This document shows positions 1,999 to 42,061 of a DNA stretch of 42,061 nucleotides, piece after piece (the first letter of the stretch is position 1; every line of letters starts with the position of its first letter). The position numbers were made by a program, and so were the translations under genes. Source of the stretch: Bacteroidales bacterium (lineage in GTDB: Bacteria > Bacteroidota > Bacteroidia > Bacteroidales > F082); contig WGGC01000167.1 in the NCBI GenBank assembly GCA_015491905.1, positions 1 through 42,061 on the forward strand, given 5' to 3'. Below the pieces are notes generated by a model. The model did no database searches. It saw only the letters and a program-made list of their open reading frames with translations, and had not been told where the DNA came from.

Positions 1999-2071
1999 AG
2001 CCTCCCATGGGACTCGAACCCACGACCTGCTCATTACGAGTGAGCTGCTCTACCAGCTGAGCTAAGGAGGC
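1999..2071 (-). tRNA. tRNA-Thr (anticodon CGU, reads ACG)
   Basis: Read on the minus strand this folds as a full cloverleaf: acceptor GCCTCCT/GGGAGGC, D arm with AGCTGGTA, anticodon stem GCTCA/TGAGC with loop CTCGTAA, 5-base variable loop, and T arm GTGGG-TTCGAGT-CCCAT. The anticodon CGT (plus-strand ACG at 2036-2038) reads the Thr codon ACG. 73 nt including a U discriminator; CCA is not encoded. It is a single isolated tRNA gene. Confidence 0.96.
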
Positions 2072-2186: not shown

Positions 2187-2471
2187 ATTAGCAAGAAAAA
2201 TGATAGGCTTTTGTTTCCTGTTGTTTATTTTTATCAGCCTTTTATCTTAAAACTGGAAAAAAAATGCATGATTAAATTCTATTTTATCTGTAAAAATGTA
2301 TATTTTTAAAATTCAACTCTTTAATAACGACTAATAATATACTGAATATCAGGCCTTATAATCTAAATGAAATTATTTTTAGGTTTAAAATAATTTAACA
2401 AAGATGAAAGATTGGTTTTTATTATCTTGCGCAAAAATTTTTTTTGTTAAATTCTTAAAATTGCTAAAAGT

Positions 2472-37752: not shown

Positions 37753-37790
37753 AAAAAAAAACGGCCTGTCGTGATTTCGACAGGCCGTTT
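37753..37790 (-). terminator. trp attenuator terminator
   Basis: AAACGGCCTGTCG (37759-37771) and CGACAGGCCGTTT (37778-37790) form a perfect 13-bp stem with a 6-base loop. On the minus strand it is followed by an unbroken T run. It lies between the leader-peptide stop (37824) and trpE (37726), the position expected for attenuation. Confidence 0.93.
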
Positions 37791-37823
37791 GATTGATATA
37801 AATTATATTACAAGCGTTCTTCT

Positions 37824-37886
37824 TCACGTCAGTTTGGGACGAAAAAAGAGCCACCACCAATTTCTATTTAAATTCATTTTATTCAT
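37824..37886 (-). CDS. trpL: trp operon leader peptide (three consecutive Trp codons)
   Basis: A 20-codon frame on the minus strand, ATG 37886 to TGA 37824-37826, reads 'MNKMNLNRNWWWLFFRPKLT'. Three TGG codons in a row (plus-strand CCACCACCA at 37851-37859) before a short tail and a strong terminator are the hallmark of ribosome-mediated attenuation: with scarce Trp-tRNA the ribosome stalls and transcription reads into trpE. A second in-frame ATG at 37877 could be the true start. The promoter's -7 box ends only 5 bases before ATG 37886, so the leader is very short or the second ATG is used. I could not identify the antiterminator pairing by eye. Confidence 0.9.
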   Translation of the reverse strand: MNKMNLNRNWWWLFFRPKLT

Positions 37887-37891
37887 GGCCA

Positions 37892-37924
37892 CAAATGTAA
37901 ATATAAAATGATGTAAAAAACAAA
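37892..37924 (-). promoter_or_regulatory. trp operon promoter
   Basis: Minus strand: TTTG (37924-37921), a 21-base spacer, then TACATTTG (37899-37892). Transcription should start at about 37886-37888, immediately at the leader-peptide ATG. Confidence 0.7.
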
Positions 37925-38706: not shown

Positions 38707-40380
38707 ATGGTTGATAAGAAAATACAAGATATTATTATTATCAGTTTATTGGCTTTATTACTTTTTGTGCCTTTTCTTGGTGGAGTGCATTTATTCGACT
38801 GGGATGAAATAAATTTTGCCGAATCGGCACGTGAAATGATACAAAGCCATAACTACCTTACGGTTCAAATTAATTATATGCCATTTTGGGAAAAGCCGCC
38901 TCTTTTCATATGGATGCAGGTGCTCTCCATGAAAGTTTTTGGCATAAATGAATTTGCAGCAAGGTTTCCCAATGCCATTGCCGGGATGTTTACTCTTGTA
39001 TCCATTTATTTAATTGGTAACAGGTTGTTTAACCGAGGGTTTGGATGGCTATGGGTACTTGTTTATGCCGGTTCTATTTTACCCCAAATGTATTTCCGCT
39101 CCGGAATCATCGATCCCTGGTTCAACTTTTTTATTTTTATGGGCATCTATTTTATGGTTCTAAGCCTACATTCCTATCCGGCACCTAAACAAAACGGATA
39201 TACTTTCCTGTCTGCAGCTTTTATAGGGCTTGCCATTATGACAAAAGGGCCTGTGGGATTGTTAATATTCCTGTTAACTTTATTTGTTTGGTTGCTGGTA
39301 GCCCGCAGACAATGGAAGAGGGTTTTTAATGCAAGATTTTTAATTATCTATACTGTTACGTTAATTGTAGTTGGCGGGTTTTGGTTTATACTGCAGGCAT
39401 TCAATGGTAAAGGTTATTTAATAATGGATTTTATTCAATATCAAATACGTTTATTCAGTAAAAAAGATGCCGGTCACGGTGGTTTTCTGATGTATCATTT
39501 TGTTGTCCTGTTTCTTGGTGTGTTTCCTGCTTCCGTGTATTCGCTTCCGGCGTTTAGAAAGTTTAAAGACCACAGGGTTATCCAAAATTTATTTAGAAAC
39601 TGGATGATGATTAGTTTCTGGGTGGTACTTATTCTTTTTACCATTGTAAAAACTAAAATCGTACATTATTCTTCATTTTGTTATTTTCCTCTGACTTTCC
39701 TGGCTGCTTATGCTATAATGAATATCATAGAAGGTAAATTAAAATACCGTGGATGGATAAAATTCTTGCTTTTGCTTACAGCTTTTATAGAAGGATTGGT
39801 TTTTGTTGTCTTGCAGATATTTGTTACCTATAAAGATCAGATTATCGCCAAAGGCTGGATAAAAGACCCGTTTGCCCTTGGCAATTTACAGGCAAAAGTT
39901 CATTGGTCGGGATGGGAATTTCTACCGGGGGTGTTGTTATTTTTTGGAATTCTCTTTTTTGTGATTGTTTATCGTAAAAAGATTGCTACACAGATAATTG
40001 GGATATTTGTGGTTACCCTGGTATTTACTACTGTAAGTATTTACACTATAACTCCGAAAATAGAAAAGTATTCTCAAAATGCTGCCATTGAATTTTATAA
40101 AAGTCATGATACGGAAAACTGTTATTTGTTGGTTTGGGGTTATAAAAGCTATGCTCAGTATTTTTACGGAGAAATTAAACAGGAAAATACCGTTACTAAA
40201 TCCAATGAACAACGTCTGTTAAAGGGAATGGTGCAAAAACCTGTTTATGTAATAACAAAAAATTTTGAGGCGGAGAAATTTCAAAAAGAATACCCAGACT
40301 TTAAATTATTATATAGAAAAAATGGCTTCGTCTTTTTCGGAAGGCCTGCCGGAACTTTTAATGAGAAAATAAATGATTAA
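38707..40380 (+). CDS. GT39-family (ArnT/PMT-like) membrane glycosyltransferase
   Basis: 557 codons. The N-terminal helix is followed by the periplasmic 'FDWDEINFAESAREM' segment, whose Asp-Glu pair is the conserved GT-C active-site motif, and 'PFWEKPPLFIWM', typical of ArnT/PMT relatives. About eleven further helices run to ~residue 450, then a soluble tail of ~100 residues. Family members transfer a sugar from a polyprenyl phosphate to lipid A or protein on the outer face of the inner membrane. Acceptor and sugar are unknown. Its end overlaps the GT2 gene by 8 bases, which suggests that GT2 makes its polyprenyl-phosphate sugar donor. Confidence 0.92.
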   Translation: MVDKKIQDIIIISLLALLLFVPFLGGVHLFDWDEINFAESAREMIQSHNYLTVQINYMPFWEKPPLFIWMQVLSMKVFGINEFAARFPNAIAGMFTLVSIYLIGNRLFNRGFGWLWVLVYAGSILPQMYFRSGIIDPWFNFFIFMGIYFMVLSLHSYPAPKQNGYTFLSAAFIGLAIMTKGPVGLLIFLLTLFVWLLVARRQWKRVFNARFLIIYTVTLIVVGGFWFILQAFNGKGYLIMDFIQYQIRLFSKKDAGHGGFLMYHFVVLFLGVFPASVYSLPAFRKFKDHRVIQNLFRNWMMISFWVVLILFTIVKTKIVHYSSFCYFPLTFLAAYAIMNIIEGKLKYRGWIKFLLLLTAFIEGLVFVVLQIFVTYKDQIIAKGWIKDPFALGNLQAKVHWSGWEFLPGVLLFFGILFFVIVYRKKIATQIIGIFVVTLVFTTVSIYTITPKIEKYSQNAAIEFYKSHDTENCYLLVWGYKSYAQYFYGEIKQENTVTKSNEQRLLKGMVQKPVYVITKNFEAEKFQKEYPDFKLLYRKNGFVFFGRPAGTFNEKIND

Positions 40381-41134
40381 CGGAAAAAAAATAATTGTAG
40401 TTTTACCTGCTTACAATGCAGAACAAACCCTTGAAAAAACCTATCGGGAAATTCCTTTCGACATCGTTGACGATGTTATTCTTGTTGATGACCGCAGCAG
40501 TGATAAAACACTACAGGTAGGAAAGCAGCTGGGAATTAAACATATTATAGAACATCAGGAAAATAAAGGCTATGGCGGTAATCAGAAGTCGTGCTATAAC
40601 AAAGCCCTTGCCCTGGATGCTGATATTGTTGTTATGCTTCACCCTGATTACCAATACACTCCCAAGCTCATACATTCTATGTGCTACCTTATTGCCAATG
40701 ATGTTTACCAGGTAGTAATAGGGTCGCGAATTCTTGGTAAAGGAGCCCTTAAAGGCGGCATGCCATTGTATAAATATGTTGCTAACCGTTTTTTAACTCT
40801 TAGTCAGAATATTCTTATGAACCAGAAGCTTTCCGAATATCATACCGGTTACCGTGCTTTTTCAGCAAAAGTGTTACGCAGCATACCTTACAATACATGT
40901 TCCGATGATTTTGTATTCGATAATCAAATGCTGGCACAAATTTTTTATGCAGGTTTTGAAGTGGCAGAAATTACATGTCCCACTACTTATGCCGAAGAAA
41001 GTTCTTCCATTAATTTCAAACGCAGTACCGAATACGGACTGGGTGTATTAGGGGTTTCTTTTGGATATGTTTTACAAAAAACAGGATTGGCAAAGCTAAA
41101 AATATTCGAAGGAATCCGGCCTAATAATAATTAA
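40373..41134 (+). CDS. GT2-family glycosyltransferase (polyprenyl-phosphate sugar synthase-like)
   Basis: 253 codons, soluble, GT-A fold. 'VVLPAYNAEQTLEKTYREIP'-type start (VVLPAYNA), nucleotide-binding 'VDDRSSDKT', 'NKGYGGNQKSCYNKAL', a metal-site equivalent 'MLHPDYQY', and acceptor-loop 'YHTGYRAFSA'. These match dolichyl/undecaprenyl-phosphate mannose synthase-like GT2 proteins, which load a sugar from a nucleotide donor onto a polyprenyl phosphate. No C-terminal membrane helices. It starts inside the end of the GT39 gene (8-base overlap), so translation is probably coupled. Confidence 0.92.
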   Translation: MINGKKIIVVLPAYNAEQTLEKTYREIPFDIVDDVILVDDRSSDKTLQVGKQLGIKHIIEHQENKGYGGNQKSCYNKALALDADIVVMLHPDYQYTPKLIHSMCYLIANDVYQVVIGSRILGKGALKGGMPLYKYVANRFLTLSQNILMNQKLSEYHTGYRAFSAKVLRSIPYNTCSDDFVFDNQMLAQIFYAGFEVAEITCPTTYAEESSSINFKRSTEYGLGVLGVSFGYVLQKTGLAKLKIFEGIRPNNN

Positions 41135-41441
41135 CAAACAACCTGTGTTGTCCCGGAAATTTTAAATAAGACCTTATTTTGCGGCCGTGATGGAAGCGGA
41201 AAGCCCACAGGTTAAAGGCTGATTGTGCCACAACCGGAGGCGGGGCGACATTAGGAGCCCCCGAAAACGGTTAGCGGCACACAGCCTTTAGCCGAGGACT
41301 TGCAGCGTACAGCACGATTTGCCCGCCATAAAAAAACAAAATAAAACAATCGTTTTTTGCTTTATTACCTTTAGGAGCATCTGAAATTATTGATTTTATT
41401 ATTGACGCGGATGTAGTACTTTTGACAAATAAAAAACAGAT
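41135..41441. other. G+C-rich, strongly folded intergenic element (possible structured RNA or repeat)
   Basis: 307 bases without a gene. In 41181-41330 I count 90 G or C of 150 (60%), against about one third for the window. The core (41210-41293) folds as one long imperfect hairpin: GGTTAAAGGCTG/CAGCCTTTAGCC (41210-41221 with 41282-41293, one G-U), GTGCC/GGCAC, AACCG/CGGTT and GGGGC/GCCCC, around the loop GACATTAGGA. A second pairing, AACCTGTG (41140-41147) with CACAGGTT (41206-41213), competes with the base of that stem. There is no open frame and no match to tRNA, tmRNA or 6S RNA that I can see. It could be a non-coding RNA, a dispersed repeat or a recombination site. The last ~110 bases are A+T-rich and hold the promoter of the next gene. 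Confidence 0.6.
41417..41424 (+). promoter_or_regulatory. -7 box for the MBL-fold gene
   Basis: TACTTTTG (TAnnTTTG) ends 17 bases before ATG 41442, predicting a leader of about 12 nt. Confidence 0.55.
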
Positions 41442-42061
41442 ATGTTAGAAATTAAAAAGTTTATTGTTAACCCTTTTCAATTAAATGCTTATGTGTTGTA
41501 CGATGAAACACGCGAATGTATTTTAATTGACCCGGCGGTTTCGAATGCCGGTGAGTTGGAAGAGTTGAAAAGTTTTATTTCGGATAATCAGCTAATTACG
41601 CAGTCGGTGGTGAATACACACAGTCATATAGATCATATTTTAGGTAATAAAGCGGTTTGTGAAACTTTTGGGGTGCCGCTGTTTGCACATCGCGACGGGG
41701 AGTCATTTTTGGAACATGCAGCAGCATCGGCACAAACGTTCGGACTTCCTTTTGCGGGCGTTAAGCCCATAGATGTTTTTATTCATGAACCGCAGGAACT
41801 GAAATTTGGAAATACTGTTTTAAAAATACTGGACACTCCCGGTCATGCTGCCGGCAGTATTTGTCTGTATGCTGAAAAAGAAGGCGTTATAATTGTAGGC
41901 GATGTGCTTTTTAGAGAGAGTATAGGCCGTACGGATTTACCAACGGGTGATTATGATTTGCTGCAAAAATCGATATGGGAAAAACTCTTTGTTTTACCCA
42001 ATGAAACTGTTGTTTTTCCGGGACATGGCCCTAAAACCACTATTGGGTATGAAAAGGAAAA
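41442..42061 (+). CDS. MBL-fold metallo-hydrolase (glyoxalase II-like), 3' end outside window
   Basis: Starts at ATG 41442 and stays open to the last base (206 codons; most single-domain relatives have about 210, so little is missing). The metal-binding motif H-x-H-x-D-H is 'THSHIDH'. Further ligands are in 'DTPGHAAGSI' (His), 'VGDVLF' (Asp) and 'FPGHGPKT' (His), so both zinc sites look complete. These proteins are usually annotated hydroxyacylglutathione hydrolase-like or persulfide-dioxygenase-like; the substrate is not decidable. Its codons are visibly richer in G and C than those of the genes before 38 kb. Confidence 0.93.
   Translation, partial: MLEIKKFIVNPFQLNAYVLYDETRECILIDPAVSNAGELEELKSFISDNQLITQSVVNTHSHIDHILGNKAVCETFGVPLFAHRDGESFLEHAAASAQTFGLPFAGVKPIDVFIHEPQELKFGNTVLKILDTPGHAAGSICLYAEKEGVIIVGDVLFRESIGRTDLPTGDYDLLQKSIWEKLFVLPNETVVFPGHGPKTTIGYEKE

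Follow-up and report, generated by a model that had tools for sequence, protein, structure and literature searches.

What is the short G+C-rich patch that separates two genes towards the end of the DNA analysed here, a stretch of 42,061 nucleotides (hereafter the window) from contig WGGC01000167.1 of a Bacteroidales bacterium? An earlier note, made from the letters alone, described a multi-stem element of no known class with two competing folds, and this description has been partly confirmed and its interpretation partly supported. The composition it reported is correct: 90 of the 150 bases at 41181-41330 are G or C, making this the richest 150-bp stretch of the window, which has 33.4% G+C overall and at best 76 such bases in any stretch elsewhere. 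The statement that the patch encodes no protein agrees with the ORF list of the window, which holds no frame of at least 80 aa across it. It is preceded by what reads as a glycosyltransferase-like gene (40373-41134) and followed by one resembling the metallo-beta-lactamase fold (from 41442). A stretch of 171 nt folds at -69.3 kcal/mol (z = -5.7), and none of 200 shuffles folds equally well. Farther away, the window also carries a tRNA-Thr gene (1999-2071, minus strand) and a Bacteroid-trp leader (RF01692, 55.5 bits; 37779-37906, minus strand).

The element itself spans 41178-41331 on the plus strand, about 150 nt, as delimited by nhmmer and by a covariance model (R1) that matches it over its full length with 156 bits; positions 41140-41177, which had been counted as part of it (41140-41330), therefore lie outside. 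The 84-base hairpin formerly taken for its core (41210-41293) is present in the predicted fold and makes up the upper part of the element; what had been missed is the conserved stem below it, which carries purine-rich loops and joins about 41181-41209 to 41294-41327. The features referred to below are the following, all on the plus strand:

41140..41147, plus strand: AACCTGTG, proposed competing partner, outside the element and most likely a chance match
41181..41184, plus strand: 5' strand of the outer stem, GCGG, pairing with 41323-41326
41186..41206, plus strand: 5' core arm, conserved, CGTGATGGAAGCGGAAAGCCC; internal loops GAA and GGA (near-invariant columns of the 35-copy alignment; Flavo-1 arm)
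41210..41221, plus strand: 5' strand of the variable helix (helix 3), 12 bp, pairing with 41282-41293
41224..41229, plus strand: upper helix TGTGCC, pairing with 41276-41281 (predicted fold, helix 4)
41232..41236, plus strand: upper helix AACCG, pairing with 41268-41272 (predicted fold, helix 5)
41242..41261, plus strand: terminal hairpin GGGGC-GAC-ATTA-GGA-GCCCC (columns of the 35-copy alignment)
41282..41293, plus strand: 3' strand of the variable helix (helix 3)
41296..41316, plus strand: 3' core arm, conserved, GGACTTGCAGCGTACAGCACG; internal loops GCA and GTA (near-invariant columns; Flavo-1 arm)
41323..41328, plus strand: 3' strand of the outer stem, CCGC, and 3' tail C(C)A (flank table)
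41442..42059, plus strand: downstream gene, metallo-beta-lactamase-fold-like as read from its sequence, used for the comparison of loci

From the outside in, the element thus consists of the outer stem, the two conserved arms, the variable helix (about 12 bp), a pair of shorter helices and a GCGAC tip. Its 5' end reads TTGCGGC or similar, and copies on Bacteroides plasmids end in the same kind of 3' tail as the window copy. The outer stem is 4-6 bp long and covaries, 30 of 35 copies forming a stem of at least 5 bp with their own partner strand, versus 10.8 of 35 when partners are swapped. In many copies the arms pair as GGG.A.TG.GAA.GC.GGA.AAG versus CTT.GCA.GC.GGA.CA.G.CCC, a pattern of short helices separated by purine-rich loops of 3x3; we infer that these loops form sheared G.A pairs. 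In the terminal hairpin, GCGAC and the first G of GGA are invariant and AGC is near-invariant in the 35-copy alignment, which we read as tandem G.A pairing.

The conservation of this fold was measured on two alignments. The first (A1) holds 35 of the 38 copies from the element's own genome, leaving out three (L017, L020, L021) whose 5' end is replaced by another insert; R1 was built from these 35, and a second alignment of 78 copies from the genus (A2) was fitted to the model. With the plain MAFFT alignment of the 35 own copies, 23 of the 27 predicted pairs change on both sides; with the 78 model-fitted copies, 24 of 27 do so, in 448 cells versus 108 in shuffles, and 95.3% of cells are paired versus at most 46.9% with the partner slid. 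In this larger alignment the two core-arm helices (helices 1 and 2) are 99.5% and 100% paired, and changes on both sides occur in all 8 counted pairs of the variable helix and all 3 pairs of helix 5. Covariation shows that the single-strand fold of the element is conserved, which bears out the guess of a structured element. Folding is apparently a property of the plus strand. Its consensus fold has 27 pairs and -26.2 kcal/mol versus 17 pairs and -10.9 kcal/mol for the other strand, the single-sequence energy is lower on the plus strand in 34 of 35 copies under RNA and DNA parameters alike, and there are 33 G-U cells versus 5 A-C cells (83 and 66 in shuffles). In the 78-copy alignment the ratio is 52:17, but 15 pairs have any G-U and 13 any A-C, so that the asymmetry rests on cells rather than pairs. 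The element may act either as RNA or as single-stranded DNA.

The second of the two folds originally proposed fares less well. AACCTGTG (41140) is able to pair with CACAGGTT (41206), and this had been taken as a possible switch or processing signal in a transcript of the window locus. The 8-nt pairing does exist in the window copy, but the family as a whole does not share it: an exact 8-nt partner for that strand occurs within the 100 nt upstream in 2 of 37 copies, the window copy among them, and it lies outside the element. Moreover, the downstream gene is found in 11 of the 12 genus genomes (own included), and in all 9 of the other genomes having sequence upstream of this ortholog the element is absent from that position. 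The pairing looks like chance, and a switch or processing role at this locus is hardly credible. Membership in the riboswitches or other switch RNAs was likewise rejected, as the alternative pairing is limited to the same 2 of 37 copies.

The element does have a relative among known RNA families, contrary to the statement that it belongs to none. In the 701 bases around it, the sole Rfam family with a match at E-values up to 10 is Flavo-1 (RF01705), which aligns end to end (model positions 1-76) with 41179-41323, including both conserved arms and their internal loops. The score, 33.0 bits (E = 1.3e-5 in a narrower search), stays below the gathering score of 42, and the link between the arms measures 92 nt in the window copy versus 23 in the model, so that the short link of Flavo-1 is not found here. 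One place in the genome exceeds the Flavo-1 threshold (L011, C200:54415-54522, 43.2 bits). In an Rfam search of 20 loci, 18 match Flavo-1 at E <=0.05, one of them reaching the gathering score; 17 of these 18 matches coincide with an R1 match, the threshold-passing one (L011) being without an R1 match at the E-value used. As the two models coincide at 17 of 20 loci, we read their matches as one superfamily with a short form of about 80 nt and a long form of about 150 nt, the latter defined by the 78-copy alignment, and the window element is almost certainly a dispersed repeat of this superfamily. The Rfam threshold, passed by one of the 20 loci tested, misses most of them.

The number of copies agrees with this identification. 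The genome yields 36 blastn matches to the element, a profile made from these finds 38 copies in the retrieved loci, and R1 has at least 76 matches at E <=0.001 (150 of 221 candidates scored). A genome search had been suggested as a check on whether the patch belongs to a dispersed repeat family, and the outcome strongly supports that it does. R1 matches occur in all 12 genomes of the genus, 3-76 in each (at most 150 candidates scored per genome), and, with strict filters and few candidates scored, in 21 of 247 genomes of the order and 42 of 395 of the phylum, own genome included. As a control we used 49 genomes that an 18-base loop pattern, prone to chance hits, had picked out; of 68 stretches found with this pattern, 2 gave a full-length R1 match. 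Four of the control genomes belong to Bacteroidota according to their record titles, and R1 matches three of them: Draconibacterium sediminis with 3 matches, an uncultured Flavobacteriales with 60 and a Bacteroidetes MAG with 8. The fourth, a Cacconaster MAG, has no match, nor has any of the 45 other genomes. Both forms are present in Bacteroidota genomes and plasmids, the short form in plasmids of Bacteroides, Parabacteroides and Phocaeicola. A search of phages gave no match to the element, and a Persicobacter plasmid gave a 30-base match and no model match. One short-form copy (L088, genome G046) lies near a Cobalamin riboswitch (2267-2460, minus strand).

Copies are placed among genes in a manner expected of a dispersed repeat rather than of a gene. 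By crude ORF calls, the gene upstream of the 38 own copies is on the same strand in 13 cases, on the opposite strand in 19 and missing in 6, and the gene downstream is on the same strand in 18 and on the opposite strand in 20, that is, without orientation bias. On a tree the copies cluster by genome (22 changes, never fewer than 34 in 200 shuffles). When 54 of the at least 276 copies from the other 11 genus genomes were compared, a single own copy of the 38 (L038) proved to occupy a locus common to other species (G003, G007 and G011), with the same downstream gene and orientation; among the 54 foreign copies, further shared neighbours amount to one pair each for G002-G004, G001-G004 and G008-G011, and in this last pair (L078 and L054) the element is on the upstream side of the same gene in inverted orientation. 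Close pairs in the own genome all stand 5' end to 5' end (5/5, with 64 of the 76 matches listed). Taken together, either orientation, grouping by genome, few shared loci and 5'-to-5' pairs amount to the behaviour of a dispersed repeat. There is little sign of very recent spread, as the best pair among 36 aligned own copies is 87% identical. One pair is near-identical, L017 equalling L021 over 131 nt and then following L020; L017 is at a contig end (C179), and gene conversion or an assembly mosaic may explain the identity. Nested in or beside repeat copies at L020 (C38), L021 (C86), L017 (C179) and L043 (406-670) is another element, unrelated and MITE-like, which measures about 262 bp and has the inverted ends TAACCTGAGTTC... 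and ...GAATTCAGGTTA.

Plasmids give the edges of the element. Plasmid p5482 of Bacteroides thetaiotaomicron carries two short-form copies that are 92% identical, and the likeness spans TGCG to CGCCCAAA and stops there. In two classes of Bacteroides plasmids the shared sequence begins at the 5' end of one of these copies; in one of these classes the stop codon of an upstream LuxR-like gene lies inside the element, and on other plasmids a recombinase gene is immediately followed by a copy. The upstream part of p5482 as found in small plasmids was considered as an exact empty site and rejected: it is a mosaic joint rather than a clean insertion, because the sequence that follows in the small plasmids does not match the downstream part of p5482. 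On p5482 (L352), the second copy is overlapped by a hypothetical protein (WP_162303076.1, 31012-31362) that may not be a real gene. On several Bacteroides plasmids (L355-L357, L359 and, on p5482, copy 2) a G-rich stretch, for example GGGTGGGTGGG, precedes the element, which is decayed in L357; some of these plasmids have an ArdC-like gene some hundred bases from the element, or a recombinase gene in front of it.

Flavo-1 is catalogued in Rfam as an sRNA, and the whole family could accordingly be one of structured RNA genes or UTR elements acting in trans or in cis. The strand-specific fold speaks for this, as does a Flavobacterium-like genome in which a long-form copy (L279, about 1501-1655, 41.4 Flavo-1 bits) precedes a gene read as alaS. 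The part available of a study of F. psychrophilum (PMC9723704) reports a structured 5' transcript without Rfam match before alaS in that species. The same part describes Flavo-1 matches as lying indistinctly sense or antisense, many of them outside transcripts, which argues against RNA genes or UTR elements, and so do the two orientations of the 38 own copies and the lack of a conserved promoter or U-run at the element ends, as judged by eye in the flanks.

Evidence for selection on individual copies comes from another genus, probably Flavobacterium, in which a long-form copy stands antisense right at the stop codon of a gene identified from its sequence as adk. It was found in 24 of 34 loci scanned (the 30 best-scoring from a search of 101 genomes and 4 earlier ones), a set thereby biased towards genomes with the element. 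Some genomes of the genus (G740, G731 and G692) have no room for the copy, with 25-26 nt between the two matched stretches. Two of the 24 copies (L322 and L328), which carry a small palindrome insert, were excluded from identity counts. In the 231 pairs formed by the remaining 22 genomes, identity is 88% and 93% in the two core arms and 74% in the middle, versus 50% for four-fold sites of adk and 50% after alignment for the 60 nt on the 5' side of the element. These copies have 34-43% G+C, versus 58% in the window copy, and still pair. G-U and A-C cells number 33:5 on the plus fold and 16:25 on the minus fold, an asymmetry that is not decisive here. In most of L322 and L328-L335 a small palindrome of the type CCCGAT..ATCGGG is inserted in the tip or the 3' arm, and in L329-L335 the model match is lost and the middle hairpin stays.

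As the arms are far more conserved than four-fold sites or flank, the element beside adk is kept either by selection or by recurrent conversion from other copies; we favour selection, and some copies have probably been domesticated. The adk locus is where such a probably domesticated copy can be tested. This strong constraint would also suit a structured RNA, but the copies are antisense to adk, and, with the evidence given above, we consider it unlikely that the family as a whole consists of RNA genes or UTR elements.

Constraint beside adk would likewise be expected if the element were a DNA site (a cruciform or single-strand hairpin) for a host protein of the chromosome, of replication or of repair, spread and kept for the use of the host. 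The arms are indeed conserved from Bacteroides plasmids to the genome studied here, whereas the palindromes beside the Y1 genes examined vary from one gene to the next. Copy number, however, ranges from 3 to 76 within one genus, 226 of the 247 genomes of the order have no match at the cut-off and strict filters used, and no lagging-strand bias appears in the closed genome G004 (19 leading and 23 lagging of 42 copies, with the replication strand taken from the skew of 20 stretches of 20 kb). A host protein's site thus appears quite improbable, and a dispersed repeat with some adopted copies is the reading that we retain.

If the element is such a repeat, a known system could have moved it: an integron as attC, a resident IS as its MITE, or a Y1 transposase (TnpA) as its REP. 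Integron attC sites end in RYYYAAC and GTTRRRY, and such ends were not seen in the alignments read by eye, on which ground attC was rejected. As regards a MITE, the outer stem of 4-6 bp covaries and no target-site duplication was seen by eye in the flank alignments of own copies. A REP of the ordinary type, a hairpin of 20-40 bp with a GT[AG]G foot, was rejected as well, the element having 150 nt and no such foot.

Y1 transposases are nevertheless natural suspects, because the accessible part of one survey (PMC6006769) describes Bacteroidetes subclass 2.6 Y1 genes as flanked by 'atypical secondary structures'; the same part gives the motif Y...Q..HH for the low-copy subclass 1.2. Genes with this motif, candidate movers of the element, were found by a motif scan, run on element-bearing genomes only, in 16 of 22 (L110-L137), and the 5'-to-5' arrangement of close pairs is also in keeping with a known mobile system. 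The scan for copies near such genes covered 31 Y1 loci plus 20 regions surrounding Y1 genes (some the same genes), and copies lie in the flanks of 7 places. One-sided copies stand 114 bp from the open frame of a Y...Q..HH gene in G090 (L137) and, in short form, about 305 bp from a Y1 gene in G169. No Y1 gene closely bracketed by copies was found in the 22 element-bearing genomes: the sole one with a copy on either side, in G009, is frame-broken, and the copies are about 0.5 and 1.0-1.1 kb away. The draft genomes G000 and G008, with at least 76 and with 38 copies, showed no Y...Q..HH gene, and two other element-bearing drafts (G110 and G032) no Y1 match at all. The genes of subclass 2.6 type (YIH.NP) read here have other palindromes alongside, differing from gene to gene. 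Weighing these points, we regard movement by any of the three known systems as very improbable. Two Y1 remnants at contig ends of the own genome (L045 on C32 and L046 on C177) have a palindrome of their own, GCTCTCGCAAGTCTGTGACTTGTGAGC, a different REP. A palindrome flanking a Y1 gene in G000, GACTTGCGAGAGCGG, bears a faint likeness to the 3' arm of the element, GACTTGCAGCGG, too short to weigh.

A dispersed REP-like repeat, mostly a passenger and with some copies adopted by the host, is therefore the best explanation overall, with a probability somewhat above even. One strand, here apparently the plus strand, folds into a long hairpin: purine-rich 3x3 loops (GAA/GNA, GGA/GCA) recur along the helix that its two arms form, the tip GCGAC...G.AGC is conserved, the helix between them may take nearly any sequence that pairs, and the link between the arms may be either short or about 90 nt. 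Spread would occur in trans, as for REP elements, through a putative enzyme recognising the folded single strand; to this REP-like mechanism we give an even chance. In the own genome most copies would be passengers between genes, and a few elsewhere, such as those beside adk in the Flavobacterium-like genus, would be kept by selection for a local role. Against this explanation stand the few loci common to species, the little sign of very recent spread, the missing lagging-strand bias in the one closed genome, and the flanks, in which no target-site duplication was seen by eye; no orthologous empty site could be resolved to the base. A host function would account for the conservation beside adk no less readily. 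A bolder proposal, which we advance tentatively and consider rather doubtful, is that Flavo-1 and the long form are one phylum-wide family of mobile palindromes of Bacteroidota, recognised as single strands, whose putative enzyme reads the repeated G.A-loop helix and not the stem sequence, some copies, as at adk, having been domesticated. If true, what is catalogued as an 'sRNA' would represent a novel class of mobile element, some copies of which the host has adopted.

New here are the long form, the covariation by which it is defined and the evidence that a family listed as sRNA behaves like a dispersed and partly domesticated repeat. We found no account of Flavo-1 in such terms in the open-access literature, outside which most subscription papers lie. 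The sections available of the original description by Weinberg et al. 2010 (PMC2864571) present Flavo-1 as an RNA, and those of a 2022 review (PMC9029176) place it among the most abundant bacterial sRNAs, with no function listed there. The behaviour of the family, that of a dispersed repeat in either orientation, suggests a reason for this gap, and the 'sRNA' label deserves revision.

Several known systems invite comparison, and searches of the open-access literature for REP- or MITE-like repeats of Bacteroidetes or Flavobacterium brought up none that was recognised as the window element. The REP, BIME and REPIN elements of RAYT transposases are likewise dispersed intergenic palindromes with many copies, grouped by lineage and forming close inverted pairs (5/5 here); the element differs from them in length (about 150 nt, versus 20-40 for REP), in having no GT[AG]G foot and no closely bracketed Y1 gene among those found, and in arms that are conserved across a phylum. 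ERIC, RUP and Correia-type MITEs are intergenic imperfect palindromes of about 100-150 bp; unlike these, the element has a covarying inner structure and conserved loops, and no visible target duplication. The STAXI motif is a structured motif for which single-stranded DNA has been considered, and consists of pseudoknots in tandem (both from the part available of PMC2864571), a description by which alone it is set apart from the element. Palindromic RNA candidates of Bacteroidetes, HMP_4078 and others, are known here by name only (PMC8040213). The closest relative remains Flavo-1, which shares the arms, the internal-loop pattern and the Bacteroidota hosts; the window element differs from it in its 92-nt link, which holds a conserved second structure (GCGAC...G.AGC), and in behaving as a dispersed repeat in both orientations.
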